A DNA stretch of 40,802 nt, taken from contig JAHYJH010000018.1 in assembly GCA_019429185.1 (NCBI GenBank), positions 1 to 40,802 of the forward strand, in the 5' to 3' direction. The first letter of the stretch is position 1. The number at the start of each line of letters is the position of its first letter. Under the pieces are notes generated by a model. That model was not told where the DNA came from. It searched no databases and saw only the letters and a list, made by a program, of their open reading frames with translations. The DNA comes from Vicingaceae bacterium. GTDB taxonomy: Bacteria > Bacteroidota > Bacteroidia > Flavobacteriales_E > Vicingaceae. The position numbers and the translations under genes were made by a program. Below are positions 4,084-39,989 of this stretch, one piece after another.

Positions 4084-5529
4084 ATGAAAAAATTAATTTT
4101 ACAGTTGATTATGGAAGAAAACCTTGATTCATATAACGATGATGAAGATGATTACACTGCTTCACTGAATCGCTTTGAAAAAATGCTTACTGATAATGAA
4201 CATTACTTTTTTGATGTTGAAGAATTTGAAGATTTAATTAATCATTATCTTGATAGCAATGAATTGGAAAAAGCAAAACAAGTTATTGACATTTCTTTAG
4301 AACAACATCCCTCCTCTTCCACCCTAAAAATAAAACATGCTGAATACTTAGCTTCTACCCATAAGCCCAACAAAGCACTTGAAATTCTTAATTCTATAGA
4401 AACTTTAGAACCTTTTAATGCTGATAATTATTTGCTTAAAGCTAATATTTACAGTCAAATCAGGCAACATAACAAAGCCATAGAAACACTTTATAAAGCA
4501 TTGAAAATTACACATGAGCGTTCTGAAAAAGCTTCCATATTAATTCATATTGCCTTTGAATATGAAAATTTAAATCGCTACGACAAAGCCATTTCTATAT
4601 TAAAAGAAATACTCGCAGAAAATCCTGATAACGAAACTGTTTTGTATGAAATAGCTTTTTGTTTTAACCTCAAAGATGACCTAGAAAATAGCATCACATT
4701 TTTTCAAGAATTTATTGATGAACATCCATACAGTTATGCAGCATGGTATAACCTAGGCGTTATTTATAACCGGGCAGAATTATATGAAAAAGCCATAGAT
4801 GCTTATGATTATGCAATTGCCATTAAGGAAGATTTTGCCTCCGCCTATTTCAATAAAGCGAATGCATTAGCTCAATTAGGTTTATACAACAAAGCCATTG
4901 AAACTTACGAAGAAACATTTCAATACGAAGAACCAGATGCAATTACCTATTATTATATAGGTGAGTGTTATGAAAATACAGAAGAATTTCAAAAAGCATT
5001 AGCCAACTATCATAAAGCAACTAAATTAGATCCTTTTTGTGCTGATGCTTGGGCTGGAATTGCCGTAATTCATGACTTAAACGACAAAAAAAACGCTTCA
5101 CTTTTTTATATCAAAAAAGCAATAGATTTGGAATACAACAACTCCGAATTTTGGCATATTTATGCAGACATACTCTCAAAACAAGGTTATTATGATAATG
5201 CTATTGCTGCTTATTACAAAGTGATTGAAATGGACGAAGAAAATGAAGATGTTTGGTTAGACATTGCTCAATCTGCATTGATTCACGAAAATATAGAGAA
5301 AGCAATATCTTTGCTGCTTGAAGGAATTAAAAAACAACCTTCAAACTATTCGCTTCGTGCACGTTTAGCATGTTATTACCTTCAATTGGGGCAACTAAAT
5401 CAAGCGTCAGAACTACTTATTAGCACACTCACAAACGAACCAGATTTGATTGATGAAATAATCGATTTTTATCCTGAAGTACTAAATTATCCTCAAATAA
5501 TAGAAATCATAAAAACCTTTAGTAAATAA
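4084..5529 (+). CDS. Tetratricopeptide repeat protein
   Basis: A 481-residue protein made almost entirely of TPR helices. Repeats with the W-LG-Y-A-F-A-P pattern are clear from about residue 70 to the end, for example AAWYNLGVIYNRAELYEKAIDA and neighbours. The N-terminus is strongly acidic (SYNDDEDD), with the VEEFEDLINHYLD segment usual in Bacteroidota members. There is no signal peptide or membrane segment, so it is probably a cytoplasmic scaffold; partners are unknown. Two starts are possible: the ATG at 4084 or the ATG at 4111 (MEENLDSYNDDEDD). The second gives the acidic start I would expect for the family, so the first nine codons are doubtful. The stop is directly followed by the ATG of the next gene with no spacer, so the two are almost certainly translated from one mRNA. 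Confidence 0.85.
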   Translation: MKKLILQLIMEENLDSYNDDEDDYTASLNRFEKMLTDNEHYFFDVEEFEDLINHYLDSNELEKAKQVIDISLEQHPSSSTLKIKHAEYLASTHKPNKALEILNSIETLEPFNADNYLLKANIYSQIRQHNKAIETLYKALKITHERSEKASILIHIAFEYENLNRYDKAISILKEILAENPDNETVLYEIAFCFNLKDDLENSITFFQEFIDEHPYSYAAWYNLGVIYNRAELYEKAIDAYDYAIAIKEDFASAYFNKANALAQLGLYNKAIETYEETFQYEEPDAITYYYIGECYENTEEFQKALANYHKATKLDPFCADAWAGIAVIHDLNDKKNASLFYIKKAIDLEYNNSEFWHIYADILSKQGYYDNAIAAYYKVIEMDEENEDVWLDIAQSALIHENIEKAISLLLEGIKKQPSNYSLRARLACYYLQLGQLNQASELLISTLTNEPDLIDEIIDFYPEVLNYPQIIEIIKTFSK

Positions 5530-8972: not shown

Positions 8973-10529
8973 ATGCTGAAAAAAATAATTGCTCTTGCGA
9001 TGCTGTTTACTTTTTGTATTCATCATTCTTTTGCTCAACAAGATTCCATTGCACTAAAATATGCTGCGACTATTACTCAAGCAGATTTAAGTAAACACTT
9101 ACACATTATCGCTTCTGATGAATATGGAGGAAGAGAAACAGGCAAAGAAAGCCTTATTAAAGCTGCCACTTACATTAGCGATTTTTATAAGCAAATTGGC
9201 ATTCCTCCAATAAAAGATATTGCTTATTATCAAACCTATAAAGTGGGTTTACAAGATGCTGCAGGTATTTCTATTACCTATAATGATAAAACATTCTTAC
9301 AAAATAAAGACTTCTATACTTTTCCTACCTATCTTAAAAACAATCAAATTAATGCCGAAGTAGTTTTTGCAGGCTATGGCATTGACGATTCTCTTTACTC
9401 TGATTACTCCAACCTTGATGTAAAAGGAAAAGTTGTAATTATTCTAAATGGCGAACCTAAAAATAAAAGCGAACGCTATTGGGTTTCCAATACAGATACC
9501 CCTTCTAAATGGAGCAACAAAAGAAATAATCCTAAAGTTGCTACAGCAAAAGAAAAGGGTGCTTTGGCATTACTTATCATTAATGAAAACACACCCGAAA
9601 TGATAAAAACCTACACCCATTTTATTGAAAGCGAAAAACTAAAAGTGCTTGATAAACCTGAGATAGATTACGATTTTCCAAATTTTTATATTTCATCCGA
9701 AATGGCTGATGAAATTATCGCAAAATCATCACAAAAAATTAAAGAAAAAATAAATAACAAAGGTATTTCCCAAAGCTTTGCTGTTAAAAACAAGCTAAAC
9801 ATAAACATCAATAAAAAAATAACTATTTCTGATGCTCATAATGTATTAGCGTATATTGAAGGAAGCGATTTAAAAGATGAATTGATAATTTTAAGTGCTC
9901 ATTACGACCATATTGGAGAACATAATGGTAAAATTTTTAATGGTGCTGATGATGACGGTTCTGGAACGGTAGCCATAATGGAAATTGCCGAAGCGTTTGT
10001 CAAAGCAAAAAAAGATGGCAATGGACCAAGAAGAAGCATCTTAATATTAAATGTTTCCGGAGAAGAAAAAGGCTTACTAGGTTCTAAATATTATACCAAC
10101 TACCCTGTTTTCCCTTTAGAAAATACGGTTGCCAACCTCAATATTGATATGATAGGAAGGTTAGATAAAAAACATGCTGATAACGAAAACTATGTTTACA
10201 TTATTGGTTCCAACATGCTTAGTAATGATTTGCATGAAATCAATGAAAATGCAAATGCTACTTATACTCAATTAGAATTGGATTATGAATTTAATACCAC
10301 TAAAGATCCAAACAGATATTATTATCGTTCTGACCATTACAACTTTGCTAAAAACAACATTCCTGTAATATTTTACTTTAACGGAGTACATGAAGATTAC
10401 CATAAAGAAACCGATACGGTGGATAAAATTATTTTCTCTAAAATGGAGAAAATTACCCGATTGGTTTTTCATACTGCTTGGGATTTAGCCAACAGAACCG
10501 AGCGTATTCAATTGAATGTTTCTGAATAA
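8973..10529 (+). CDS. Secreted M28-family zinc aminopeptidase with PA domain
   Basis: A 518-residue exported peptidase. A signal peptide (MLKKIIALAMLFTFCIHHSFA, cut before Q22) is followed by a protease-associated-type region (roughly 95-270, with VVFAGYGIDD and KGKVVIILNG) and an M28 catalytic domain. The two-zinc site is complete: H310 (SAHYDH), D327 in GADDDGSG, E364/E365 in SGEEKGLLGS, D392 in NIDMIGR and H477 in EDYHKETDT. Members remove N-terminal residues from peptides outside the cytoplasm. No T9SS sorting domain follows, so it is probably periplasmic or reaches the surface by another path. Its stop codon abuts the ATG of the amidotransferase gene, an unusual operon partner. The start at 8973 is fixed by the signal peptide. 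Confidence 0.92.
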   Translation: MLKKIIALAMLFTFCIHHSFAQQDSIALKYAATITQADLSKHLHIIASDEYGGRETGKESLIKAATYISDFYKQIGIPPIKDIAYYQTYKVGLQDAAGISITYNDKTFLQNKDFYTFPTYLKNNQINAEVVFAGYGIDDSLYSDYSNLDVKGKVVIILNGEPKNKSERYWVSNTDTPSKWSNKRNNPKVATAKEKGALALLIINENTPEMIKTYTHFIESEKLKVLDKPEIDYDFPNFYISSEMADEIIAKSSQKIKEKINNKGISQSFAVKNKLNININKKITISDAHNVLAYIEGSDLKDELIILSAHYDHIGEHNGKIFNGADDDGSGTVAIMEIAEAFVKAKKDGNGPRRSILILNVSGEEKGLLGSKYYTNYPVFPLENTVANLNIDMIGRLDKKHADNENYVYIIGSNMLSNDLHEINENANATYTQLELDYEFNTTKDPNRYYYRSDHYNFAKNNIPVIFYFNGVHEDYHKETDTVDKIIFSKMEKITRLVFHTAWDLANRTERIQLNVSE

Positions 10530-11099
10530 ATGATGGAAAAAGTTTTAGTACTCGATAATTACGATTCTTTTACCTATAATTTAGTGCATTATATTGAGGC
10601 TCTTGATTATGAAGTGGATGTTTTTAGAAACGATAAAATTTCCATTGAAACCGTTGGTGCTTACGAAACGATAATTCTCTCTCCCGGACCAGGTTTACCT
10701 AAAGATGCAGGAATATTATCAGAAGTAATAAAAACCTATGCTCCAACCAAAAAAATATTAGGTGTTTGCTTAGGTATGCAAGCTATAGCAGAAGTTTTTG
10801 GTGGAAAATTGGAAAATTTATCTCATGTTTTTCACGGTGTAGCAAGTCAGTTAAACGTTATTGATACTACTGACAAACTTTTTGAAAATTTACCGCAACA
10901 ATTTGAAGTTGGCAGGTACCACAGTTGGGTAGTTACTCAAAACAATTTTCCTAGTGAACTAAAAATTACAGCAGTAGAAGAAAACAAGCAAATTATGGCA
11001 TTAAGACATGTAACGTATAACTTATATGGTGTTCAATTTCATCCTGAATCTATTCTTACGCACTATGGTAAAGAATTAATTGCTAATTTTTTGAGGTAA
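10530..11099 (+). CDS. Anthranilate / aminodeoxychorismate synthase glutaminase (TrpG/PabA)
   Basis: A 189-residue class I glutamine amidotransferase. The start LVLDNYDSFTYNLVHY, the SPGPGLP oxyanion strand, the nucleophile C80 in GVCLGMQAIAE and the catalytic pair H171/E173 in VQFHPES are complete. It supplies ammonia to chorismate for either tryptophan or folate. TrpG and PabA cannot be told apart here: no trpE, trpD or pabB is adjacent, and many bacteria use one subunit for both. The start could be either of two ATGs at 10530 and 10533; the first directly follows the peptidase stop. A diverged duplicate of its last 21 codons lies 971 bp downstream (12011-12073). Confidence 0.92.
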   Translation: MMEKVLVLDNYDSFTYNLVHYIEALDYEVDVFRNDKISIETVGAYETIILSPGPGLPKDAGILSEVIKTYAPTKKILGVCLGMQAIAEVFGGKLENLSHVFHGVASQLNVIDTTDKLFENLPQQFEVGRYHSWVVTQNNFPSELKITAVEENKQIMALRHVTYNLYGVQFHPESILTHYGKELIANFLR

Positions 11100-11105
11100 A
11101 TATTT

Positions 11106-11372
11106 CTAATCTTTAGTCAGTTCACAAGCCGTGGTAGTCGTTGTTGTTGTCGCTGGCCCATTACCGGACTGGCTAGTGAAAGTTGTAGTAGTTGAAGCAT
11201 TTTCGCAATCTTTATTAAAACCATTCAATCCTCCTGGTTTTGATGATGTTTCGCTTGTTACAGAAAGTACAGCCCCAGATGAATCTTTACAAGTACACGT
11301 AGAAGTCTTACTGCATGAGGCACAAATTGACAATACTATTGCTAATCCAATAATTGTTTTAAATTTTTTTAT
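11106..11372 (-). CDS. Small lipoprotein-like ORF, AUA at the expected start
   Basis: Read from 11372 the frame encodes KKFKTIIGLAIVLSICASC (after an ATA codon), a textbook lipoprotein signal peptide with an S-I-C-A-S-C region, followed by a Cys/Ser/Thr-rich mature part (TSTCTCK, runs of threonine, a final CELTKD). The mature segment has no recognised domain. An in-frame TAA directly precedes the ATA, and no ATG, GTG or TTG occurs until TTG at 11333, which would remove the signal peptide. Either translation starts at AUA or the start codon has been lost. It faces the trpG/pabA gene tail to tail and lies within the accessory block bounded by the duplicated trpG/pabA end. Confidence 0.5.
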   Translation of the reverse strand: MKKFKTIIGLAIVLSICASCSKTSTCTCKDSSGAVLSVTSETSSKPGGLNGFNKDCENASTTTTFTSQSGNGPATTTTTTTACELTKD

Positions 11373-11477
11373 TTATTGTTTTTATATTTTTTTAATATTT
11401 ACCTAACCTACTTTTCTTTTTCGAGCATTTAATTGGAATAGGAATGAGTAATATGCAGCTTGTTAGTAAACCGTTTA

Positions 11478-11915
11478 TTAATGTTTATTCAATTCTCTTT
11501 GAAGCTCTTTTATTTTTTTTCTCCTCTTTACAACTTCTGTAAAAATTTCATTTTCTTCTTCTCTTAAATTCTCTATTTGATTCCAGCATTTTTCTACATC
11601 ATCAACAAGTCCCAATTTACCACAACTTTCTTTTATTTTTTTCAACTTTTTAAAAGCAGGTTTAACAATTGAATCATGGTATAACTTCGACTTTGTAAAT
11701 GGAGTTTCTTCATTAATGTAAAAATAAAAATCTTTCTCTCTTAATTTTAACCCTTCATTTTCTAACTCAAGACACTCTATTAATCCTTTCCAATATATCT
11801 CAAAACATTCACAATTTTCTACTTTTAAAGTATCTAAATTTACATCTAAAACGGATTCATCCGTACAACTAATGCTAAGAATAAGAATAGAATATATTAA
11901 AATAAGTTTTTTTAA
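11478..11915 (-). CDS. Lipoprotein-like ORF without a canonical start codon
   Basis: An uninterrupted frame of about 145 codons beginning (after a TTA) with KKLILIYSILILSISCTDES, a clear lipoprotein signal with an SISC lipobox. The mature part is helical and charged, with cysteines (ENCECFEIYW, LIECLELE, ESCGKL, EKCWNQIENL) and a coiled-coil-like lysine/glutamate tail (VVKRRKKIKELQRELNKH). No ATG, GTG or TTG lies near the N-terminus in this frame. A TACATTTG box at 11939-11932 would start transcription only about 10 nt before the TTA. A one-base change in the run of seven A's after the TTA would put an ATT in frame. I do not recognise the family. Confidence 0.5.
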   Translation of the reverse strand, partial: LKKLILIYSILILSISCTDESVLDVNLDTLKVENCECFEIYWKGLIECLELENEGLKLREKDFYFYINEETPFTKSKLYHDSIVKPAFKKLKKIKESCGKLGLVDDVEKCWNQIENLREEENEIFTEVVKRRKKIKELQRELNKH

Positions 11916-11931
11916 TTTATTTTCTTTACCC

Positions 11932-11939
11932 CAAATGTA
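11932..11939 (-). promoter_or_regulatory. -7 box TACATTTG upstream of the start-less lipoprotein ORF
   Basis: The octamer matches TAnnTTTG on the minus strand, 16 nt before the first lipoprotein codon. No good -33 element was found. Confidence 0.4.
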
Positions 11940-12001
11940 GTAATTCTATTTTAATCACTCTATTTTTAATTTATTATTAGAGCTGTGGGGTTTTAACAAT
12001 C

Positions 12002-12073
12002 CTTTAATTCCATCCTGAATCTATTCTTACCCAACATACCAAAGAAATCATTACTAATTTTTTGAAAGACTAA
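12002..12073 (+). pseudogene. Fossil of a trpG/pabA 3' end
   Basis: The frame ending at TAA 12071-12073 encodes HPESILTQHTKEIITNFLKD, the C-terminus of a TrpG/PabA glutaminase. The first 20 nt (12011-12030) are identical to 11040-11059 in the intact gene, then the copies diverge but stay alignable (HYGKELIANFLR versus QHTKEIITNFLKD). Similarity reaches a few codons further upstream, where the intact V-Q-F reads L-stop-F. It is non-functional by itself and marks the far boundary of the accessory DNA at 11100-12001. Confidence 0.8.
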
Positions 12074-12085
12074 ACTCCAAAAACA

Positions 12086-13504
12086 TTATCTCTTCACCAC
12101 TTTAGTAGTATAAACCAACTTCTCAGATTGAAGTTGTAATACATACATTCCGCTAGGAAGTGCAGAAATATCGAGTTTTCCTTTTTCAATACGTTTTTTC
12201 AGCAGTTCTTTTCCATGAAAATCAACTATAATTGCCACATAAATCTTGCTATCAGAAAATTCAATATTTAAAATAGATGAAGTTGGGTTCGGATATATGT
12301 TAACCATTTCTTTTTTCATATTAGTTACTATATTAGTAATTAATAATACAAAAGGAGCAGATATTTCACTGCATCCATCAGTATAAAACACTTCTACTTC
12401 ATAATTTCCAGGTGCTGTTGCTGTAATAGAAACCACATTGCTATTTGGAATTGGGTTGCCATCTAAATACCATTGGTAACTTACTCCTATTGTTGAGGAA
12501 GTCAACACATTATTATTATCCATAATTGTTGGAACAGGATTTGGCGTGCAAGACTGGTTATGATTTATTCTCGATGAATTTTGCAAAGAATCATTAAACT
12601 CAACAAAAGCATCACAATCTCCTTTCAACGTATAATCTAACCAAGGATTCACAAAATCAAAGGTAACTTGATGTTGTTGCGTTCTTGTTATTGAAATACC
12701 TGTAGAAGATGTTCCTTCACCAAAATCGCAATTAAAATTAGCGTTAGCAAAATAACAATGTCCACCACCAATAATAGTTATAATAGTTTTACAAGCAGAA
12801 GCCAACGAATCATACATAGGAATATGATGATCAACAGGCGGAGTAACACCATCTTGAGCTCCAGATAAAATTAAACTCGGTACAGTTACTGTTTTGGCAG
12901 AATTAATAGAAGAAACCCCATTACTTGTAGATTCGGCTGGTGCTAAACCAATTAGCGTATTGAAATAAGTCGTATTAGATTGTACCAATGAATCTGCTGC
13001 TAAAAATGCAGCTCCACCACCCATAGAATGTCCCATTAATGCTGTTTTTGGAGCTACTCCATTATGGAAAATAGAACTTACTGTTGCTCCTTCTAGTTGC
13101 ATTTGATGAACTAAAAATTGTAAATCCCAACCAAATTTCTGATGGTCTGTACCAAGGATATTTCCTTCCGTTCTCGGAAAAACCATAATGTAACCTCTTG
13201 GAACAAATTCTGTCCATAAATTCTCATAAGCACTCCAAGCCATCACAAATCCATGTCCGAATACAATTACAGGATATTGCCCCGAAGTCATAGCCACATT
13301 TGTTCCCGCAGTTGCAGCCGGATAATAAATTTCTGTTTCTATACTGCGGTTATTTCTATTGGCATCCTGAAAAGTAATAGTGGTATGCCCAATTTGATGT
13401 TGCGAAAACAAAGCGGTTGATGAAAACAGTAATACAAATAATAAAATAAAAATAAAAACATCTTTCTTTGTGGTGTTTTTTAGAATAGTTTGTAATTTTT
13501 CCAT
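12086..13504 (-). CDS. Secreted alpha/beta hydrolase with T9SS sorting domain
   Basis: A 472-residue exported hydrolase. After an N-terminal hydrophobic signal (FIFILLFVLLFSSTALFSQ) comes an alpha/beta-hydrolase domain with the oxyanion VFGHGF, the nucleophile S160 in GHSMGGG, an acid at D218 (SGAQDGVTPP) and H249 (GGGHCYF), so the triad is complete. Residues about 315-390 form an Ig-like adhesion module (YQWYLDGNPIP ... GNYEVEVFYTDGC), and residues from about 400 form a type A T9SS sorting domain (VNIYPNPTSSILNIEF ... LPSGMYVLQL ... KVVKR). It should be delivered to the cell surface or medium. The fold and GHSMGGG motif resemble dienelactone-hydrolase, chlorophyllase and cutinase-like esterases; the substrate is unknown. 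It begins 12 nt after the trpG/pabA fossil, in the opposite orientation. Confidence 0.88.
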   Translation of the reverse strand: MEKLQTILKNTTKKDVFIFILLFVLLFSSTALFSQHQIGHTTITFQDANRNNRSIETEIYYPAATAGTNVAMTSGQYPVIVFGHGFVMAWSAYENLWTEFVPRGYIMVFPRTEGNILGTDHQKFGWDLQFLVHQMQLEGATVSSIFHNGVAPKTALMGHSMGGGAAFLAADSLVQSNTTYFNTLIGLAPAESTSNGVSSINSAKTVTVPSLILSGAQDGVTPPVDHHIPMYDSLASACKTIITIIGGGHCYFANANFNCDFGEGTSSTGISITRTQQHQVTFDFVNPWLDYTLKGDCDAFVEFNDSLQNSSRINHNQSCTPNPVPTIMDNNNVLTSSTIGVSYQWYLDGNPIPNSNVVSITATAPGNYEVEVFYTDGCSEISAPFVLLITNIVTNMKKEMVNIYPNPTSSILNIEFSDSKIYVAIIVDFHGKELLKKRIEKGKLDISALPSGMYVLQLQSEKLVYTTKVVKR

Positions 13505-13609
13505 AACATTTAGTTTAAATTAGTGATGTAAAATTAATCTGTGTTGTTGTTTAAAAAAATTCCCGTATTTTTATCAAAATAAGATGAGTTTTGGTAACCC
13601 CTCTAAAAA

Positions 13610-15088
13610 ATGGAATTTCTAATTCAAAAAATAAGTACCTGTTGTAGTACTCAGCAATTAAATTTGTTTGAGTCATATTTAGCTGCCAAAAATCAACTGC
13701 TTTCACAGAAATTAATTCATCATATAAAAAAAACTCCTAACCAAACCTTAGATTATTATTGCGAAGCCGTTTATGGAAATGGCTCCAAGGAAACTTTAAA
13801 AAAATTCAATCAACTCAACCATCACACGCTCAACTATTTTTCTTTTATCAGTCAACATTTTCCCACTTTTCTTAGCCAAAATGTGAGTGAAATTGAATGG
13901 CTCATTTACCATGAAGAACACAACAAAGCCATAGAAAAACTAAAATTATTGGTTGAAGTAGCCAAAAAGTTTGAAGATTACGGGTTGTTAATCCACTTGT
14001 TTGAAATTACGCAACAAAACAAACTGCTTTCGACAACAATAGGGAAACAATTAAATTTAGAAAGTAGCAAAGAGCATTTAACGCTTTTTAGCGATTTAAG
14101 AATATTACTGCAAAAACAAGATGAACTTACATCTACTACACTTATTGAAGAACAAAAAGTTGTAAACCCAAAAGACTTAGCTTTTTTTAAAAATCATTTT
14201 AATTCCAATTCTCTTTCTATTCAACTTATTGCCCGACAATCCTACTTAAACTTACTCAGCAGCTATAACCACAAATCTTTTTACGATAAAAACACCCTTG
14301 AATTAATTGAATACACCAAAAAATTAGCTGAAAAACATGCTTATTTAATCATAGCTCAGCATAGAGAAAAATTGATGAGTTTAGATTATATGTTAGTTAA
14401 ACATACTCGACTAACATTAAGTGAGAAAGAAATAAACAAAACCTGTTCTTCCATCATTAACAAGTGGAAAAAATTTTATCATGCCAACAATCAGCTCGAT
14501 TCTGGATTAATGTTGGCACTTAGTATTAAAGGTAGTTTTTTTATTACCGATTATTTCTGCAAACCGCTAAACGAAAAACTTCAAAATGAAGTAAAAGAAA
14601 TTATTAGCTTGTTTGAAGAATTGAGCAACAAACTCGATTGGGAAAAAGTGAGTTACCTTAAATACATTAATTTTTATAATGTTTATGCCATGTTTCTTAT
14701 TTTAGATAATCAGGAAAAAACAAGCATTAAGCTCATTGAAAAAGTGCTGCACGAATACCAACAAAAGACGTTCAAAAAAATGTACGATGGTTTATTTGTA
14801 GTGCTTTTAATGGCTCATTTTCAAAATAAAAGTTTTGATGAAGTGGTAGAGAATTACAGTCGCTATAAAAAACTCACTAAAAACTTTGTTTCCATGGAAG
14901 AAAACGACTTGGTAATAAAAGCCATTTATTACATCGCTCAACTAAAAATTGCACCGAAAAACCAATATGAGAAAAAATTAACTAGCGTATTGCAAACCTT
15001 AAAAAGCAATCCTCATCTTAACAATAACTTATTGTTGGTGGAGAGGATGATGGAGGATATGACTTCGCATAAGTTTATTAACACTTGA
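13610..15088 (+). CDS. Hypothetical all-helical TPR-like protein
   Basis: A 492-residue protein with no signal peptide or membrane segments. It looks entirely alpha-helical: an N-terminal bundle (QQLNLFESYLAAKNQLLSQK) followed by irregular helix pairs with TPR-like spacing (HNKAIEKLKLLVEVAKKFEDYGLLI and similar). The overall architecture (about 100-residue head, then a degenerate TPR solenoid of similar length) recalls the 512-residue protein encoded at 38074-39612, and both may belong to the same Bacteroidota-specific family; the resemblance is weak and by eye only. It is divergent from the T9SS hydrolase with about 105 bp between, and convergent with the HEPN-type gene. Function unknown. 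Confidence 0.75.
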   Translation: MEFLIQKISTCCSTQQLNLFESYLAAKNQLLSQKLIHHIKKTPNQTLDYYCEAVYGNGSKETLKKFNQLNHHTLNYFSFISQHFPTFLSQNVSEIEWLIYHEEHNKAIEKLKLLVEVAKKFEDYGLLIHLFEITQQNKLLSTTIGKQLNLESSKEHLTLFSDLRILLQKQDELTSTTLIEEQKVVNPKDLAFFKNHFNSNSLSIQLIARQSYLNLLSSYNHKSFYDKNTLELIEYTKKLAEKHAYLIIAQHREKLMSLDYMLVKHTRLTLSEKEINKTCSSIINKWKKFYHANNQLDSGLMLALSIKGSFFITDYFCKPLNEKLQNEVKEIISLFEELSNKLDWEKVSYLKYINFYNVYAMFLILDNQEKTSIKLIEKVLHEYQQKTFKKMYDGLFVVLLMAHFQNKSFDEVVENYSRYKKLTKNFVSMEENDLVIKAIYYIAQLKIAPKNQYEKKLTSVLQTLKSNPHLNNNLLLVERMMEDMTSHKFINT

Positions 15089-15880: not shown

Positions 15881-16004
15881 AAAATAAATAACTCATTACT
15901 AATATTTTTCAATAAATCCTTCACAAAACAAACTCACAATACAAATTAAAAAACATTATTCTTAAAGGACTCTGTTAGGTATTTAATGAAAATATTTTCA
16001 CACA

Positions 16005-16168
16005 AAACAAATCCTTAATTTTGTCTTATGGCATTTGAATTAATATCCGATTTTCAACCCACAGGCGACCAACCCGAAGCTATCAAACAATTGGTGGAAG
16101 GTTTACAAAAAGGGGCTAAAGCACAGACATTACTTGGAAAAAAATGTGCTGTCATTATTATAAATTGA
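16005..16168 (+). pseudogene. Duplicated, truncated uvrB 5' end with its promoter box
   Basis: Positions 16005-16137 align without gaps to 18119-18251, which is the uvrB leader plus its first 36 codons, with about 10 mismatches in 133 bp by hand count. The copy keeps the TAATTTTG box (16016-16023) and the ATG (16028). It encodes [20 protein letters not shown], then a segment of which [14 protein letters not shown] is close to the usual UvrB sequence, then departs and stops at TGA 16166-16168 after 46 codons. It lacks the Walker A motif, so it cannot work as UvrB. The fragment's GLQKGAK looks closer to typical UvrB than the intact gene's GLKKRAK, so the fragment may be the older copy. It bounds the AbiE module on the left. 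Confidence 0.9.
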
Positions 16169-16298
16169 CTCATCAACGATTGCTTTCGTGAGAAGGTGTT
16201 ATATCACCATATAAGCTCTTGCAAAACATGTGTTTATGCTTAAGGAGGTGTAACAAAGTAGATTAAGGCGGATTCTAGAAAATAATTGTAATTATTTA

Positions 16299-16329
16299 TT
16301 TGTTTTTTCACATATAATTGCTATTTTTG
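16299..16329 (+). promoter_or_regulatory. Promoter of the AbiE operon
   Basis: TTTG (16299-16302) and TATTTTTG (16322-16329) are separated by 19 nt, an excellent Bacteroidota promoter. Transcription should start near 16335, directly at the palindrome 16337-16357. Confidence 0.75.
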
Positions 16330-16336
16330 AAATAAT

Positions 16337-16357
16337 TAATCGGATAATATCCGATTA
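16337..16357. promoter_or_regulatory. 21-bp perfect palindrome, likely AbiEi operator
   Basis: Two 10-bp arms, TAATCGGATA (16337-16346) and TATCCGATTA (16348-16357), are exact inverse complements around a single A. The site sits immediately after the -7 box, at the predicted start of transcription and 20 bp before the abiEi ATG. AbiEi-family antitoxins are known to repress their own operon by binding inverted repeats, so this is the natural operator; that link is inference. Confidence 0.7.
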
Positions 16358-16377
16358 TCATACAAAATAATTACAAT

Positions 16378-17016
16378 ATGGATTTTAGAACGGTAATAAA
16401 GGAATATGCTGAAGCTCCGATAACTAGACATTTAATTTTAGAATTACTAAGTGATTATCAGAGACCAAATGATAAAATTAGTGAGCTACTTAAGAGCAAA
16501 GAGCTTATTTCTATTAGAAGAGGACTCTATATAACTGGCCCTAAAATGGACTTAACAACACCAGAACCTTTTCTAATAGCGAATCACCTTAGAGGGCCGA
16601 GTTATGTATCATTAGAGTCTGCATTGTCTTATTGGAACATGATACCAGAAAGAGCTTATGAAATAAGTTCAGTAACCATAAAAACTTCAAAGTTATATAA
16701 AACTCCTGTTGGACGATTTAATTACCAACAATTAAAGATTCCTTATTATTCTTATGGAATAAAAAACATAAAATATTCACCTAAGCAAACCATGTTAGTT
16801 GCCTCACCTGAAAAAGCTTTGTGTGACAAAGTTGTGCTTACACCCCAAATTTATCTTAGAAGCATCAAACAAACACGAGAATTTTTACTGGAAGATCTTC
16901 GTATGGATAGTGAAGTATTAGGCACATTAGACACGAAAGTTATGGAATTATGGATTAAAAATGCTCCTAAAAAAAGTAGTCTAAAAATGCTAATTAAAAC
17001 GCTGATAGAATTATGA
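16378..17016 (+). CDS. abiEi: AbiEi-family type IV antitoxin / autoregulator
   Basis: A 212-residue protein with the AbiEi layout. An N-terminal winged-helix region (residues 1-60, ending in the conserved SIRRGLYITG wing) is followed by a C-terminal domain with PSYVSLESALSYWNMIPE and SPEKALCDKVVL. In AbiE systems this protein represses the operon and counteracts the AbiEii toxin without forming a stable complex (type IV). The ATG at 16378 lies 20 bp after the palindrome. Its stop overlaps the abiEii start by 4 nt (ATGA), giving translational coupling. The gene lies inside a 2.1-kb insertion flanked by two copies of the uvrB 5' end, so it is very likely acquired. Confidence 0.9.
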   Translation: MDFRTVIKEYAEAPITRHLILELLSDYQRPNDKISELLKSKELISIRRGLYITGPKMDLTTPEPFLIANHLRGPSYVSLESALSYWNMIPERAYEISSVTIKTSKLYKTPVGRFNYQQLKIPYYSYGIKNIKYSPKQTMLVASPEKALCDKVVLTPQIYLRSIKQTREFLLEDLRMDSEVLGTLDTKVMELWIKNAPKKSSLKMLIKTLIEL

Positions 17017-17870
17017 TAAAAGAGTGGATAGCCGAATATAATCCTCAAAATGAAGAAGAAATGGTAGCTGCATTACGAGAGATAATGCAAGAAATTACTT
17101 TGGCAGGTTTATCAAGAACTGATTTTTTTGAGAAAGCAGCTTTCTACGGAGGAACCGCTCTCCGGATTTTTTATGGGTTAGATAGATATTCAGAAGATTT
17201 GGATTTTTCTTTACTTAAACCTGATTCTAATTTTTCAATTGAGCCATATTTCAAAGCGATTATATATGAATTTAAGTCATTGGGACTGACTGTTGGTATT
17301 AAGGAAAAGAAAAAAACTAACCAAACAGCTATTGATTCTGCTTTTCTGAAAGCTGAAACAATTTGGCAAGAAATTGTACTAGAAGACATCATCAAAGAGA
17401 TTGGAGTGCGTTCTAACAAGACGTTGAAAATAAAAATAGAAGTTGATCGACAGCCATCATTAAATTTCAAAACTGAAGAAAAGTTATTACTCCGTCCATT
17501 TTCTTTTTACGTGAAATGTTTTACCAAACCAAGTTTATTTGCAGGTAAAATGCATGCTCTGCTATTTAGAAAGTGGAAAAATAGAGTTAAAGGAAGGGAT
17601 TGGTATGACTTAGAATGGTATATCAAAAAAGGAATTCCTTTGGATGTAAATCACTTTTTAACTAGGGCAAAAGATACAAATGACTGGCAAGAAGATAGCA
17701 TTTCTAACGAACAGATTCTCGAGCTATTAGATACCAAAATCAAATCAGTTTCTTTTAGCAATATTAAAGAGGATGTTGTTAGGTTTATCCAAAATGATGC
17801 TATTTTAACTATTTGGAATCCTGAATATTTCAAAGATTTAATAGAGAAAATTAAATTTGAGAACACTTGA
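17013..17870 (+). CDS. abiEii: AbiEii/AbiGii-family nucleotidyltransferase toxin
   Basis: A 285-residue toxin of the AbiEii nucleotidyltransferase family. The signature FYGGTALRIFYGLDRYSEDLDFSL carries the GG loop (G46-G47) and the paired acids D62 and D64 of the nucleotidyltransferase site. The C-terminal conserved block KMHALLFRKWKNRVKGRDWYDLEWYI is intact. Members of this family stop growth, some by adding nucleotides to tRNA 3' ends; the substrate of this branch is unknown. All key motifs are present, so the toxin looks functional. Its end overlaps a HigA-like fragment by 14 nt. With AbiEi it forms a complete abortive-infection-type toxin-antitoxin pair. Confidence 0.92.
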   Translation: MIKEWIAEYNPQNEEEMVAALREIMQEITLAGLSRTDFFEKAAFYGGTALRIFYGLDRYSEDLDFSLLKPDSNFSIEPYFKAIIYEFKSLGLTVGIKEKKKTNQTAIDSAFLKAETIWQEIVLEDIIKEIGVRSNKTLKIKIEVDRQPSLNFKTEEKLLLRPFSFYVKCFTKPSLFAGKMHALLFRKWKNRVKGRDWYDLEWYIKKGIPLDVNHFLTRAKDTNDWQEDSISNEQILELLDTKIKSVSFSNIKEDVVRFIQNDAILTIWNPEYFKDLIEKIKFENT

Positions 17871-18048
17871 TCTTAGCAAAAGGTCAATACTTGAGAATTG
17901 CAAGATAAAAAACAAAGACCTTGTTTCATATTTTGGTAGCAAAAGTTTAGTTAGCGAAGTGTTGAATAAGAAGCGAGAACTAACTCTAAAAATGATTAAA
18001 TCACTTCATAAAGGACTTGGAATAGCTTATGAATTACTTATTACTTGA
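17857..18048 (+). CDS. HigA-type HTH antitoxin fragment (C-terminal half)
   Basis: A 63-residue frame beginning at a TTG and overlapping the abiEii end. The segment KNKDLVSYFGSKSLVSEVL followed by KKRELTLKMIKSLHKGLGI closely follows the C-terminal HTH of HigA-like antitoxins (COG5499 type), which are usually 120-140 residues. The N-terminal half, which normally contacts the toxin, is missing, and no HigB gene is present. It may be a relic of a second toxin-antitoxin pair joined to AbiE, or a small DNA-binding protein translated by coupling to abiEii. The strong hairpin at 18071-18103 follows 22 bp after its stop. Confidence 0.65.
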   Translation: MRTLDLSKRSILENCKIKNKDLVSYFGSKSLVSEVLNKKRELTLKMIKSLHKGLGIAYELLIT

Positions 18049-18070
18049 AATCAAAGAAATCTAATCACTT

Positions 18071-18108
18071 AAACCTGACAGGTCTTAAAGACCTGTCAGG
18101 TTTTTTTA
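18071..18108 (+). terminator. Rho-independent terminator after the AbiE module
   Basis: 16-bp arms AAACCTGACAGGTCTT (18071-18086) and AAGACCTGTCAGGTTT (18088-18103) form a near-perfect hairpin followed by a T-run (to 18107). The AACCTGACAGGT motif also recurs, diverged, at 20185-20217, so it may double as a dispersed palindrome. Confidence 0.85.
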
Positions 18109-18118
18109 TAGTTCCATC

Positions 18119-18251
18119 AAACAAATCCTTAATTTTGCCTCATGGCATTTGAATTAATATCCGATTTTCAACCCACAGGCGACCAACCCGAAGCCATCAA
18201 ACAATTGATAGAAGGGTTAAAAAAAAGAGCTAAAGCACAAACATTACTTGG
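18119..18251 (+). repeat. Right copy of the 133-bp uvrB 5' direct repeat
   Basis: Aligns without gaps to 16005-16137 at an offset of 2114 bp. It includes 23 bp upstream of the uvrB ATG, the promoter box and the first 36 codons. Confidence 0.9.
18130..18137 (+). promoter_or_regulatory. -7 box TAATTTTG, nearly leaderless uvrB
   Basis: The TAnnTTTG box ends 4 nt before the uvrB ATG, so transcription should begin at or within a base or two of the start codon. The same box and spacing occur in the truncated copy at 16016-16023. Confidence 0.55.
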
Positions 18252-20166
18252 TGTTACAGGCTCCGGAAAAACATTTACCATCGCTAATGTTATTCAGCAA
18301 GTTCAACGTCCCACTTTGATTTTAAGCCATAACAAAACACTTGCAGCTCAATTATACAGCGAGTTCAAACAATTTTTTCCACACAATGCCGTAGAATATT
18401 TTGTTTCCTACTACGATTATTACCAACCTGAAGCCTATTTGCCTGTTACCGATGTGTATATCGAAAAAGATATGTCTATTAACGATGAAATTGAAAAAAT
18501 GCGTTTGAGTACAACAACCGCATTGCTCTCTGGCAGACAAGATGTAATAATAGTAGCTTCCGTTTCTTGTATTTACGGTATTGGTAACCCTACCGATTTT
18601 AAAGAAAACATTGTAAAACTTAAAGTAGGTGATGTTATCAGCAGAAATAAATTTTTGCTTCAATTGGTGCAGGCAATGTATTCTCGCACTGAAGCCGATT
18701 TTCAGCGAGGAAATTTTAGAGTGAGAGGAGACACCATAGATGTCTATCCTGCTTACGCAGAAATTGCGTATCGTATTTATTTTTTTGGAGATGAAATTGA
18801 AGAAATAGAATCTTTTGACCCAATTAATGGTGGAATACTTGAAAGTTTTACCTACTTAAACATTTATCCTGCAACCATTTTTAATACAACACAAAACACA
18901 CTAAATCAGGCAATAAAAGACATACAAGACGACCTATTTAATCATTTAATTTTTTTAAAAGAAATTGGTAAACACGCAGAAGCTAAGCGTTTGGAAGACC
19001 GTGTAACTTACGATATGGAAATGATGCGTGAATTAGGTTACTGTTCAGGAATTGAAAATTACTCTCGTTATTTTGATAGGAGAGCTCCGGGTTCTCGTCC
19101 TTTTTGTTTGTTAGACTATTTTCCCAACGATTTTTTAATGGTGATTGATGAAAGCCATGTAACGGTTTCGCAAATTGGAGCCATGTATGGTGGGGATCGT
19201 TCTCGTAAAGAAAATTTAGTAGAATACGGTTTTAGATTACCTTCTGCAATGGATAACCGACCACTGAAATTTGAAGAGTTCCATCAATTGTTAAACCAAA
19301 CCATTTATGTAAGTGCTACTCCTGCCGATTTTGAGTTAAAAGAATCTGAAGGAATTGTAGTAGAACAAATTATTCGCCCAACAGGATTATTAGAGCCGGT
19401 TATAGAAATTCGTCCGAGTTTAAATCAGATTGATGATTTGATGGAAGAAATAAATAGCAGAGCAGAAAAAGACGAGCGTGTGTTAGTAACAACATTAACC
19501 AAACGAATGGCTGAGGAGTTAACCACATATTTTGATAACAATGGGTTGCGATGTCGATACATTCATTCTGATGTAGATACCATTGAGCGTGTTGAAATTT
19601 TGAGAGACCTTAGAAATGGATTATTTGATGTGTTAATAGGTGTAAATTTATTAAGAGAAGGACTAGATTTGCCCGAAGTTTCGTTAGTTGCTATTTTAGA
19701 TGCCGATAAAGAAGGGTTTTTACGTTCGGAGCGTTCTCTTATACAAACCGCAGGAAGAGCTGCAAGAAATTTAAACGGATTAGTGATTATGTATGCCGAT
19801 AAAATTACGAAATCTATGCAAAAAACGATGGATGAAACAGACAGAAAAAGAACGAAACAACTACAGTACAATGCAGAACACAACATTGTACCTACAGCTT
19901 TAAACAAAAGCAAAACCAGTGGCGATAAAACCATGTTTGGCAAATCAGCTTCACCAGATAATTTCTATTTATTAGATAATATTAGTCAACAACCTAGTGT
20001 AGCAGCCGACCCAGTAGTTCAATACATGAGCAAGCCTCAACTGGAAAAATTGTTGGAAGAAACGCAAAAAAGAATGAAAGAGGCTGCCAAGCAAGAAGAC
20101 TTTTTAGAGGCTGCCAGACTAAGAGATGAAATGATGGAGTTGGGGAGAATGATAAAGGAACTATAA
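18142..20166 (+). CDS. uvrB: UvrABC excinuclease subunit B
   Basis: A full-length 674-residue UvrB, the damage-verifying helicase of nucleotide excision repair. Visible parts are Walker A GVTGSGKTFT (residues 37-46), the beta-hairpin region YYDYYQPEAYLP, the DESH Walker B (VIDESHVTVSQIGAMYGGD), the helicase motifs GVNLLREGLDLPEVSLV and QTAGRAARN, and a C-terminal UVR domain (EAAKQEDFLEAARLRDEMMEL) that binds UvrC. uvrC lies at 36013-37800, far away as usual. A TAATTTTG box 4 nt before the ATG suggests a leaderless mRNA. A truncated duplicate of its 5' end lies 2.1 kb upstream, separated by the AbiE module. In the duplicated part, residues 23-31 differ between the two copies. Confidence 0.98.
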   Translation: MAFELISDFQPTGDQPEAIKQLIEGLKKRAKAQTLLGVTGSGKTFTIANVIQQVQRPTLILSHNKTLAAQLYSEFKQFFPHNAVEYFVSYYDYYQPEAYLPVTDVYIEKDMSINDEIEKMRLSTTTALLSGRQDVIIVASVSCIYGIGNPTDFKENIVKLKVGDVISRNKFLLQLVQAMYSRTEADFQRGNFRVRGDTIDVYPAYAEIAYRIYFFGDEIEEIESFDPINGGILESFTYLNIYPATIFNTTQNTLNQAIKDIQDDLFNHLIFLKEIGKHAEAKRLEDRVTYDMEMMRELGYCSGIENYSRYFDRRAPGSRPFCLLDYFPNDFLMVIDESHVTVSQIGAMYGGDRSRKENLVEYGFRLPSAMDNRPLKFEEFHQLLNQTIYVSATPADFELKESEGIVVEQIIRPTGLLEPVIEIRPSLNQIDDLMEEINSRAEKDERVLVTTLTKRMAEELTTYFDNNGLRCRYIHSDVDTIERVEILRDLRNGLFDVLIGVNLLREGLDLPEVSLVAILDADKEGFLRSERSLIQTAGRAARNLNGLVIMYADKITKSMQKTMDETDRKRTKQLQYNAEHNIVPTALNKSKTSGDKTMFGKSASPDNFYLLDNISQQPSVAADPVVQYMSKPQLEKLLEETQKRMKEAAKQEDFLEAARLRDEMMELGRMIKEL

Positions 20167-25732: not shown

Positions 25733-26668
25733 ATGAACTCCAATAAAGAAAAATATAAAATATGGTGTGAAGGTAATAATTCCATTCCTTTATTCTACAG
25801 ATACACCTATTATCAGACACTTTTTGGAGATAATTGGGATGTTATTCTCGATTGTAGAGGCGAAAACATTGTTGGTGTTATGCCTTTTGTTTTAAGAAGT
25901 AAATTTGGATTTAAAAAAATTAATCCCGAATTATTGTTTCCCTACCAAGGTATTTGGATAAATTATCCTGATAATCAAAAAAATGCAACAAAAATAAGTT
26001 TTGAAAAAGAGGTAATTACCAACATCATTAACCAACTTCCAACAGTTGCTTTTTTTAATCAACAATTTCATCCTAATTTTACGAATTGGTTACCTTTTTA
26101 TTGGAAAGACTATCGTCAAACCACTCGTTATACCTATATCATAGAAGATATTTCTAATTTGGATGTTGTTTTTAATGACTTTAAAGACAAAACAAGAAAT
26201 AGTATTAAAAAAGCTGAAAAAAAATTTTCAGTATGTAAATCAACGTCCATTGATGATTTTATTGCTTTTAAAAGTGAAAACAACAACTTAAATCCTTCAA
26301 ATTTAACAGGTTTAAAGCGAGTTATTAATTTTGCATTTGAACAACATTCTGGCGAAATATTAGTGGCTAAAAACAATGATGGAGTGGTTTGTTCCTCCAT
26401 TTTTTATGTATGGGATGAATTTGCTGCATATTTACTTCAATCTATTAACAATAAAAAAATAAACTATTCGGGAGCCTCATCATTACTAATTTGGGAAGCC
26501 ATAAAAAACACTTCTTCAAAAGCAAAATCATTTGATTTTGAAGGAGGAATTATTGAGCCTGTCGAATCTTTTTTTAGAGGTTTTGGAGGAATACAAACCC
26601 CTTATTTTGATATTAGTAAAACCAATTCCTACTTACTTAAAGCACTGAATTATAGCGTAAAAAAATGA
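25733..26668 (+). CDS. BioF2/FemAB-like GNAT acyltransferase, paralogue 1
   Basis: A 311-residue protein with the two-lobed acyltransferase fold of the FemAB / BioF2-like group. The second lobe contains DKTRNSIKKAEKKF, EILVAKNNDGVVCSSIFYVWDEFAAYLLQ and the SLLIWEAIK ... FDFEGGIIEPVESFFRGFGG block that marks this family, where the end of the second GNAT domain binds the acyl donor. Such proteins join amino acids or acyl groups to lipid-linked or surface polymers; the substrate is unknown. The gene overlaps the next by 4 nt (ATGA), and its product is paralogous to the next, with far higher similarity in the first half than in the second. A polysaccharide deacetylase follows, so an envelope-polymer modification operon is likely. 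Confidence 0.85.
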   Translation: MNSNKEKYKIWCEGNNSIPLFYRYTYYQTLFGDNWDVILDCRGENIVGVMPFVLRSKFGFKKINPELLFPYQGIWINYPDNQKNATKISFEKEVITNIINQLPTVAFFNQQFHPNFTNWLPFYWKDYRQTTRYTYIIEDISNLDVVFNDFKDKTRNSIKKAEKKFSVCKSTSIDDFIAFKSENNNLNPSNLTGLKRVINFAFEQHSGEILVAKNNDGVVCSSIFYVWDEFAAYLLQSINNKKINYSGASSLLIWEAIKNTSSKAKSFDFEGGIIEPVESFFRGFGGIQTPYFDISKTNSYLLKALNYSVKK

Positions 26669-27603
26669 GTAATAAAGCATTGTTTAGCCAATATTGTTCT
26701 GACAACAAAAACCTGCCTTATTTTTTCGACTATGCGTATTATCAAACCATTTATGGTAATAACTGGGATGTTATTTTAGTTGAAAAAGGTGGCGTTGTAA
26801 TGGGTATAATGCCTTTTATTATTCATAAAAACAAAGGTTTTAACGTAATAAGACCTGAATTTTTAATCCCTTATCAAGGTATTTGGATAAATTATCCTAC
26901 AAATCAAAAATACAACACCAAAATAGGCTTTGAGAAAGAAGTTATTTCAAAAATAATTGAACAACTTCCTGATGTTGCTCTTTTTAGGCAACAATTTCAT
27001 CCTAATTTTACTAATTGGCTTCCTTTTTATTGGAAAGGTTATCAGCAAACTACTCGTTATACATTTATACTCGACACAAGTTTGCCCATAGATGAAGTTT
27101 ATGCTAATTTTCATAACAACACAAGAAGAGAAATTCAAAAAGCAGAAAAGGCACTTTTTATTGAAGAAGCAACCTCTATTTCAGATTTATACCAGTTAAA
27201 AGTGTTGGTTTATAAAGAGAAAAACAACTCAACTTATCCAATTTCATTAAAAACATTAGAAACAATCTATGGTTATTTTTCTAACAAAGAAACAGGAAAA
27301 ATACTTTTAGCTAAAGATAAAGACAACACAATTCATGCAGCTGTTTTTTATGTTTGGGATGCAGAAAGTGCATATTACCTTCAAGGTGCAAGTAACACGA
27401 AATTTAAAACTTCTGGAGCAATTTCTTTATTGCTTTGGGAAGCTATTAAAAGAACAGCTCTTTTAAATAGTCAAAAATTTAATTTTGAAGGCTCAATGGT
27501 TGAAAATGTACACCGTTATTTCGCTAATTTTGGCGGCAAGCAAGTTCCTTACTTTGAAATAAGTAAAACGAATCATCCTTTACTAAAATTATTACGCTAT
27601 TAA
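26665..27603 (+). CDS. BioF2/FemAB-like GNAT acyltransferase, paralogue 2
   Basis: A 312-residue tandem paralogue of the preceding gene. The first 135 residues are nearly colinear and mostly identical (for example PYQGIWINYP, QQFHPNFTNWLPFYWK, QTTRY), while the second half is much more diverged yet keeps RREIQKAEKA, GKILLAKDKD, FYVWDAESAYYLQGAS, SLLLWEAIKRT and FEGSMVENVHRYFANFGG. The latter block is closer to the family consensus than in paralogue 1, so this copy may hold the ancestral activity. It starts inside the stop region of paralogue 1 and its own stop overlaps the likely start of the deacetylase gene, so all three genes are translationally coupled. Confidence 0.85.
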   Translation: MSNKALFSQYCSDNKNLPYFFDYAYYQTIYGNNWDVILVEKGGVVMGIMPFIIHKNKGFNVIRPEFLIPYQGIWINYPTNQKYNTKIGFEKEVISKIIEQLPDVALFRQQFHPNFTNWLPFYWKGYQQTTRYTFILDTSLPIDEVYANFHNNTRREIQKAEKALFIEEATSISDLYQLKVLVYKEKNNSTYPISLKTLETIYGYFSNKETGKILLAKDKDNTIHAAVFYVWDAESAYYLQGASNTKFKTSGAISLLLWEAIKRTALLNSQKFNFEGSMVENVHRYFANFGGKQVPYFEISKTNHPLLKLLRY

Positions 27604-37872: not shown

Positions 37873-38071
37873 AGAGTTTGTCCATAATGTCCGATATCTT
37901 CGTTATTCTCGACTTTCAAATCAGTCATGTACTTTAGTACACTCCTGGTTCTCAAGTCATCGAAACCTCAATCTCGAACATTACTCACAATATTAAATTG
38001 TTTTTTAGTTGTGTTCGTGAGTTCGCTTCGCTCAGTTCTGAACCAAACTCTCGACTTTATGGACAGACTCT
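37873..38071. repeat. MITE-like repeat, copy B
   Basis: A 199-bp element starting AGAGTTTGTCCATAATGTC and ending GACTTTATGGACAGACTCT, so the terminal inverted repeats are nearly perfect. It is longer than copies A and C; its interior contains parts found in each. Its right end supplies the TAA stop of the neighbouring minus-strand gene (38074-38076). No ORF is present. Confidence 0.8.
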
Positions 38072-38073
38072 AT

Positions 38074-39612
38074 TTAGTCTTTGCTAGAAAATTTAAGCTG
38101 AACTAAATATAAATAAGATTGATTATATAGATGAGAATCTATCCAGCTTAAAACGTCAAAAACGTCTAAAATTAATTTCTCATTAGAATCATTAAATAAA
38201 TCATTCAAATCCAGTTTCAATCTTTCAAGCATTTCGTTTGTTTCAGCTTTTGTCAATTCATTAAATTTATTGGTATAAAAAAAACAAATTAATAATTTCA
38301 AACTAGTTAAGCTACTTTTAACATCATCAATATCATTAAAATACTGTTTTGCAATAAAATTCAAGTAAATAAACTTTTTTTGCTCGAAGGCAATAATTAA
38401 AGACAAAATTTTTACAATAAATAGTTGAATAGAAATGCTTTTAAACTGCAATTCATTTAATGCTTTATTTGTCCAAAGATTTGCTTTTTCGAATTGATTT
38501 AACCCAATAAATGAAACAATTAAATGCAGATACAAACTAACTTTGGCAAAAATATGGATAGCTGTATCATATTTGACTAATCCCTCGAAAATGTTATCTT
38601 CGTAAGAACTGCTTTTTTCAAAGTCGCCTTTCTGGTTATAAAAAGCCAAACCAATATTTAAGTAAGTAAACAGCTTAAGTTTAATTAACCTATTAGTAGA
38701 GGAAAATCGATAAAAATCTAAAAGTTTGAGGCGTTCTTCTACTTTAGAGTGTTGTTTTTGAATAAAATGTGCAACTAATGAATTGTAAGTGTTGGATATA
38801 AAGCTTAATAAATTAATTTCCAACTGTTCAGGATTATCTTGATATAACTCAAGCCACTCTTCTTGTGTTTTGGTTGCTATTTTATAATCTTCTGAGAAGA
38901 AATAAAAATAAGCTTTTGTAGTAAGGATTAATTCATGATTATGAAAGGAGGCACTTTTGTTGTTCGATAAATTTAAAATGGTTTGTTTAAAATGGTTTAG
39001 TTTATCTGTTACTTCCTCTTCAGAAAAATTGTAAGATTCTCTGCTAACTAAAATAAGTTGGTTTCTCAATTGGTTAGTCTGAGAAAAAAGTAGGTATTCA
39101 TCTAATATTTTTTTTTCTTCGTCAAGCCCTGTTGTTGCAAAGTATTCCAACTTCCCTCTATCATACAGCTCTCTTACGACAAGTTGTTCTTTTTTTAAAC
39201 ACTCCAATAAATAAAGCTGTAAATCATATTTTTTAGCTAATGTTTTTGCCTGTTCTATTGTTTTTTGTGCCTGAATAAGTAAGCCTTTATCAAATAAGAT
39301 TTGAGCATTTTGAATATAATTAGTCACCTCATTTTCAACACTTTTTTTGTAGTGGTAAGCATTTAAACTTCGTAAAACCTGAAAATGAAGTTGGTGTTTC
39401 AAGTTTCTTAGGTTTTGAGTTAAGTCTTTTTCGTGGAGTAACTTCCTAAAGGTATCTTGATTAAAATTAACCAAGGAGTCGTAAATATCATACAATTGAA
39501 GGTATTTTAAGTCGTTTTTTTCGCCATGTCGTTTAGAAAAAATTTTAAAAAAACGCTTTTCGTTCTTTGTTAAACTTTTTACTAGCTCAAAAACAAAATC
39601 AGATTTAGACAT
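38074..39612 (-). CDS. Hypothetical all-helical protein (TPR-like solenoid)
   Basis: A 512-residue soluble helical protein. The start FELVKSLTKNEKRFFKIFSKRHGEKNDLKYLQLYDIYDSL resembles a Bacteroidota family of unknown function that begins 'K(L)SL(T/S)KxEKRxFK'. It is followed by a degenerate TPR-like solenoid (ILFDKGLLIQAQKTIEQAKTLAKKYDLQLYLLECLKKEQ and later helix pairs). It has no signal peptide and no catalytic motif. The layout is similar to the 492-residue protein at 13610-15088. The gene is bracketed by two copies of the MITE-like repeat; copy B overlaps its stop region, and copy C lies 52 bp upstream of its ATG. A TAAATTTG box (39624-39617) ends 4 nt before the ATG, suggesting a leaderless mRNA. 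Confidence 0.8.
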   Translation of the reverse strand: MSKSDFVFELVKSLTKNEKRFFKIFSKRHGEKNDLKYLQLYDIYDSLVNFNQDTFRKLLHEKDLTQNLRNLKHQLHFQVLRSLNAYHYKKSVENEVTNYIQNAQILFDKGLLIQAQKTIEQAKTLAKKYDLQLYLLECLKKEQLVVRELYDRGKLEYFATTGLDEEKKILDEYLLFSQTNQLRNQLILVSRESYNFSEEEVTDKLNHFKQTILNLSNNKSASFHNHELILTTKAYFYFFSEDYKIATKTQEEWLELYQDNPEQLEINLLSFISNTYNSLVAHFIQKQHSKVEERLKLLDFYRFSSTNRLIKLKLFTYLNIGLAFYNQKGDFEKSSSYEDNIFEGLVKYDTAIHIFAKVSLYLHLIVSFIGLNQFEKANLWTNKALNELQFKSISIQLFIVKILSLIIAFEQKKFIYLNFIAKQYFNDIDDVKSSLTSLKLLICFFYTNKFNELTKAETNEMLERLKLDLNDLFNDSNEKLILDVFDVLSWIDSHLYNQSYLYLVQLKFSSKD

Positions 39613-39663: not shown

Positions 39664-39775
39664 AGAGTTTGTCCATAATGTCCGATTTATTCAAAGTATC
39701 TATTGTTTTTAAAGGTTTTCATGAGCTCACTTCGCTCGGTTCTGAACCAAACTCTCGACTTTATGGACAGACACT
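39664..39775. repeat. MITE-like repeat, copy C
   Basis: A 112-bp element, starting AGAGTTTGTCCATAATGTCC and ending GACTTTATGGACAGACACT, in the same orientation as copy B. It shares the 'cacttcgctcggttctgaaccaaac' right half with copy B but lacks the GTAC hairpin segment, so it is an internal-deletion variant. Confidence 0.8.
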
Positions 39776-39989
39776 AAATATTACAAGTTAGATATAAAAC
39801 AATATTTTAATAAATATACACTAATTTATAATTGAAAAAGATATAAATGATAAATTTACTACAAACTGAGTCAGAGTGAATGAAATTAAAATATAATATC
39901 ATGAAACGACCATGAGTAAAAGTTCCTCACACAAGAGAATGATTATAAAGTAAGTTCCATCCCGATAAAAAACAAATAAATATAAACAC
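39776..39989. other. Spacer upstream of the beta-propeller gene
   Basis: 214 bp of A/T-rich DNA with no recognisable gene. No clean TAnnTTTG promoter is seen at the expected distance. Confidence 0.4.

Follow-up and report, generated by a model that had tools for sequence, protein, structure and literature searches.

Do two adjacent lipoprotein-type frames with no start codon in the usual place begin translation at unusual codons, or have both lost their starts while their coding parts stayed intact? The question arises in the window, the whole 40,802-nucleotide stretch of Vicingaceae bacterium DNA analysed here, which is the entire contig C174 of a 3.66-Mb genome (232 contigs, 96% complete). 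ORF1 (11372-11106) and ORF2 (11915-11478) lie on its minus strand, and both carry a lipoprotein-type signal peptide. The K-K of this peptide is preceded by ATA in ORF1 and by TTA in ORF2.

11106..11372, minus strand: ORF1, lipoprotein-type frame of 88 codons, with ATA at the expected start and with homologues
11370..11372, minus strand: ATA codon of ORF1, at the position of the homologues' ATG
11478..11915, minus strand: ORF2, lipoprotein-type frame, 145 codons long when counted from TTA and without a stop back to 11945; relatives not found in the collections searched
11913..11915, minus strand: TTA codon ahead of the ORF2 K-K, read from the sequence

ORF1 reads TAA, then ATA AAA AAA TTT AAA ACA ATT, with the in-frame stop abutting the ATA, and runs for 88 codons to its terminus at 11106. 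ORF2 reads TAG, then AAT TAC TAC ATT TGG GGT AAA GAA AAT AAA TTA AAA AAA CTT, and spans 145 codons counted from TTA or 155 from the upstream stop, with its terminus at 11478. From the upstream stop to the hydrophobic core, neither frame has an ATG, GTG or TTG. The earliest canonical start codon of ORF1 is a TTG at 11333, which is the 14th codon and falls within the signal peptide; that of ORF2 is a TTG at 11645, codon 101 of the stop-to-stop frame. At the local base composition, the chance of an open stretch is 1.4e-4 per frame for 88 codons and 1.7e-7 for 155 codons.

A sequence-only reading of this DNA had reported the K-K signal peptides after ATA (11372-11370) and TTA (11915-11913), the open frames of 88 and 145 codons and the missing ATG, GTG and TTG, and re-reading both minus-strand frames bears it out on all three points. 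The start-less pair is right as an observation and lies beyond chance. The same reading called the lipoboxes proper, which was generous: both frames satisfy the lipoprotein rule (basic n-region, hydrophobic core, cysteine after a small residue) and the cysteine motifs are present, but the lipoboxes are loose (CAS/C, SIS/C). ORF2 is called coding from its openness and signal peptide alone, and ORF1 additionally has homologues. A plus-strand frame of 98 codons (11110-11403) overlaps ORF1 and slightly exceeds it in length; homologues exist for ORF1 and none for this antisense frame.

One answer is that other codons serve as starts. In ORF1 the seventh and eighth codons are ATT and the 14th is TTG, and the open frame of ORF2 has an ATT at 11936-11934, seven codons above TTA. 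From the inner ATT or TTG, however, ORF1 would forfeit its K-K region or its signal peptide, and the ATT of ORF2 overlaps a TAnnTTTG box described below. Across the 330 bases upstream, in any frame, 0/15 ATG, GTG or TTG codons (ORF1) and 0/20 (ORF2) are open to the A-run, which also counts against this answer and excludes a start in another frame plus slippage over that distance. Initiation at such alternative codons is highly improbable.

The homologues of ORF1 bear directly on its missing start. Among 149 relatives, ORF1 matches its own genome and four others (G040, G129, G093, G074), and a scan of genome_contigs returns two loci, NORP85 (the G040 contig) and SZAS-23. The best homologue, from G040 in the same family, is 53-56% identical (E 7.2e-19) and has an ATG aligned exactly with the ATA of ORF1. 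G129 (E 9.8e-5), G093 (E 1.1e-4), G074 (E 9.5e-4) and SZAS-23, whose match is restricted to residues 1-32, are weaker; what these four have in common with ORF1 is chiefly the signal peptide and the TC.C region, which makes their kinship less certain. They too have an ATG ahead of K. The sequence-only reading had proposed comparing homologues for an ATG at this position, and it is there in 5/5 distinct homologues. ORF1 thus shows no odd start kept between species, and its close homologue in G040 carries a canonical start where ORF1 is altered.

ORF1 belongs to a group of small cysteine-containing lipoproteins. It fits the family pattern SC[SK]K ... TC.C ... C ... C, drawn from the invariant columns of an alignment of four sequences (A1). 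The signal peptide, SC[SK]K, TC.C and later cysteines are common to ORF1 and the Flavobacteriales/Bacteroidota lipoproteins of G040, G129 and G074, whereas ORF1 differs from them in having ATA for their ATG and a longer Thr-rich tail. ORF1 matched no model in Pfam, NCBIfam, PADLOC or PHROGs and nothing in plasmids. Its differences from G040 fall at the three codon positions 22, 24 and 27 times, and the single changes comprise 9 synonymous and 17 non-synonymous, which shows only weak constraint. At the G040 locus (L003), a short dispersed-looking repeat lies upstream of the homologue and recurs further on.

ORF2 has no credible relatives in the collections searched. It found only itself among the 149 relatives, nothing in plasmids, phages, genome_contigs or viral_contigs, and no match in NCBIfam, PADLOC or PHROGs; two Pfam hits are far below cut-offs, and two PDB matches are weak (E 0.088 and E 0.55). 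In a set of 395 genomes of the class, a match in G424 (E 3.5e-5, residues 7-54) has three stops inside and was judged to be chance. The TTA of ORF2 is one step from TTG and two from ATG. A TTG ancestor is plausible given that single step, and we infer a former canonical start for ORF2.

The two frames share an insertion of about 0.97 kb, located where a trpG/pabA-type gene has its 3' end.

10530..11099, plus strand: trpG/pabA-type glutamine amidotransferase gene (TIGR00566, 181.5 bits against a cut-off of 121.05)
11032-11094, plus strand: attached repeat copy, the last ~63 bases of the trpG-type gene, one half of a direct repeat
11095..12007, no strand: 913 bp that congener G004 lacks (971 bp when measured from one repeat copy to the other)
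12003..12065, plus strand: stranded trpG-type 3' end, 83% identical to 11032-11094 and followed by the congeners' downstream sequence
12086..13504, minus strand: converging gene that bears a T9SS type A sorting tail and sits directly next to trpG in four congeners

In 4/5 congeners examined (G001-G004), trpG and the 12086-13504 gene are adjacent and the site is empty; the fifth, G005, has a more distant trpG match and other downstream sequence. Against G004, the window aligns in two blocks, 9030-11094 and 12008-15055, that overlap by 58 bp. Because the congeners' downstream sequence follows the copy at 12003-12065, this copy is probably the trpG end that was originally there and has been displaced; the attached copy at 11032-11094 probably came with the insert. 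Such a structure would result from either integration at the 3' end or homology-anchored illegitimate recombination with DNA from a relative. No integrase was found within the insert.

Insertions in this genome do not generally duplicate gene ends. That idea was dropped after a survey of 11 insertion-like gaps between the genome's own sample (G000) and G004, in which 3/11 had an overlap of more than 50 bases, two of them in the window and the third in L085 on alignments shorter than 100 bases; the opposite comparison yielded a single weak case. Several further repeats were seen. The 5' end of uvrB (18142-20166) is duplicated at 16001-16137 and 18115-18251 (133-137 bp, 92%), flanking an insert at 16138-18114 with an AbiEi/AbiEii pair (16378-17016 and 17013-17870; PADLOC E 5.7e-77 and 6.7e-119), and G004 has a single copy of this 5' end and lacks the insert. 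A 143-bp repeat (25991-26133 / 26920-27062, 82%) lies in genes 25733-26668 and 26665-27603, tandem paralogues by appearance, and a 59-bp repeat (38014-38072 / 39718-39776, 92%) flanks gene 38074-39612. L086 carries a 46-bp repeat at 578 and 957 (93%) that terminates in TTTCTACTATTGTAGAT, presumably resembling a type V CRISPR repeat.

The stranded gene end offers a clock for the insertion. Compared with the attached copy and four congeners, 5/63 of its bases are private: one change creates a stop, and the others alter two residues of a conserved stretch. Three of the five are adjacent, which gives about 5% if they are taken as one event and 8% if all are counted, and the age estimate therefore stands on five changes, three of them side by side. 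In simulation, both frames stay open with probabilities of 0.12, 0.04 and 0.015 at 4, 6 and 8% neutral substitution, and of 0.007, 0.0006 and 0.0001 when 0.1 indel per substitution is assumed. Both frames would seldom remain open under such neutral change, which places the probable loss of the starts well after the insertion. For a large part of the time that has passed since the insertion, selection probably acted on the genes. Either a late start loss or continuing translation could follow such a period, and the simulation is equally compatible with both.

Unusual starts are not a habit of the sampled genes in this genome. The sample, 701,445 bases or 19% of the genome, was made up of the window plus another 60 stretches. 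Among the frames that fit the lipoprotein rule, an upstream start codon is present in 14 (directly before K in 10) and absent from 13; nine of the latter have a start shortly inside the match (within six codons in eight cases and at twelve codons in the ninth). Four frames in the 701 kb lack both an upstream start and one close inside: ORF1, ORF2, one at 27159 of the window, which opposes gene 26665-27603, and one at L074 4774, which opposes a 601-codon frame. In 12 of the 536 main frames with 85 codons or more, ORF2 included, no ATG, GTG or TTG occurs in the first 30% of the frame; its antisense frame keeps ORF1 out of this set. Of the other 11, two adjacent rows in L094 resemble one split gene.

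A comparison of main-frame pairs over 453,605 bases of G004, with five pairs without aligned N-termini left out, found a canonical start in 61/61 genes, 60 by rule and one by inspection (L015 13029-14465, whose ATG is within 2 residues of its partner's and was counted as canonical). Zero odd starts in 61 places the 95% upper limit near 5%, which is valid for shared genes; accessory genes on insertions are scarcely represented. An orthologue test not confined to main frames flagged 24/105 pairs, mostly antisense shadows, and was set aside. The 28 window genes start with ATG in 25 cases and TTG in three, and have A at -3 in 14.

Errors in the consensus or assembly are a further explanation, by which the true sequence would have canonical starts before the A-runs. 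The genome is a draft in 232 contigs, and NTA precedes AAAAAA at both sites. This would nevertheless require two independent errors, hitting two start codons within 550 bases. Starts of the form ATGAAAAAA are read intact elsewhere in the same genome, for example at 4084 and 39990, so the A-run start context is not misread as a rule. A-run errors are usually indels, and these would break the frame. An error of this kind is very unlikely.

A remaining explanation is low-level translation of both genes from AUA and UUA in an unstructured, A-rich context free of Shine-Dalgarno (SD) sequences, of the sort usual for this phylum, perhaps keeping expression low. Both frames are intact though the neighbouring stranded gene end has changed. 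ORF2 has A at -3 and -6, and a putative promoter element lies just upstream of it.

11932..11939, minus strand: TACATTTG, TAnnTTTG match 16 nt ahead of the TTA of ORF2

The sequence TACATTTG at 11932..11939 fits TAnnTTTG, the -7 promoter motif of Bacteroidota, and suggests that ORF2 may still be transcribed. The motif lies within 100 nt of 12/28 window genes, and the window is not enriched in it (73 found, 73.7 expected). A sigma70-type scan of 10900-12200 gave promoters no more numerous than in shuffles. A at -3 is reported as favourable in Flavobacterium johnsoniae (PMC6847099), but ORF1 carries T there and C at -6.

As described in PMC13009471, natural AUA or AUU starts occur in S. aureus infC, ccpN, citZ and cvfC1, with AUA in infC, ccpN and citZ at the start position, as in ORF1. 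Reporter tests there give roughly 10-30% of AUG, with ccpN reaching up to 30% in rich medium. The S. aureus starts follow extended SD motifs, and those of cvfC1 and ccpN are conserved between species (PMC13009471). No such motif is seen in the ORF1 or ORF2 leaders, and the ORF1 homologues have ATG instead. The ATG in all five homologues and the canonical starts in the 61 sampled genes also speak against translation from AUA and UUA.

UUA, moreover, is two bases away from AUG. In E. coli it reportedly initiates hardly at all, a result ascribed to Hecht et al. 2017. With an S. aureus-like SD absent and no A at -3 in ORF1, weak initiation is conceivable and goes unsupported. Translation of the pair from AUA and UUA is thus possible but rather doubtful, and it is the leading rival to start loss. 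The stronger proposition, that an SD-free bacterium truly initiates two adjacent imported lipoprotein genes at these codons and keeps expression low, is unlikely.

Recent loss of both starts is the favoured explanation and is somewhat probable. It builds on what the sequences show: two open frames without starts, ATG in the homologues of ORF1, and an insertion whose site is empty in congeners. Two lipoprotein genes would have entered with working starts on the ~0.97-kb insertion at the trpG-type 3' end and been retained under selection for a while. Later changes in the start codons would then have silenced both at initiation, leaving incipient pseudogenes with unbroken frames and little or no protein output; that the losses are recent and protein is absent is what we infer. 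ORF1 is probably a start-loss gene, and ORF2 may be assigned to start loss alongside it by analogy. Like other start-loss pseudogenes of bacteria, ORF1 combines an intact frame with a homologue's canonical start at the same place; here, in contrast, two adjacent genes are hit and other lesions are absent. That two starts should go while nothing else is damaged calls for coincidence or a shared cause, and the TAnnTTTG box before ORF2, the weak ORF1-G040 constraint and the small basis of the age estimate also weigh against start loss.

Of the two answers offered by the sequence-only reading, lost starts with intact coding parts fits better because of the homologues' ATG, the genome's canonical starts and the absence of the insertion from congeners, and it may hold for ORF2 too. 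Non-canonical initiation in an A-rich, SD-free context is conceivable but has gained no positive evidence.

If the pair is truly initiated at AUA and UUA, UUA would join the start codons in use; to our knowledge, it is not an established natural start. Translation of these genes would mean that SD-free initiation in the phylum tolerates codons ignored by annotation and that catalogues of small lipoproteins are incomplete. Whether or not these genes are translated, a start-less frame from a draft genome should be compared with homologues and congeners before it is interpreted as having a non-canonical start. If the genes are untranslated, they would be a clean case of accessory genes silenced at initiation, in which damage to the frame has not yet begun.
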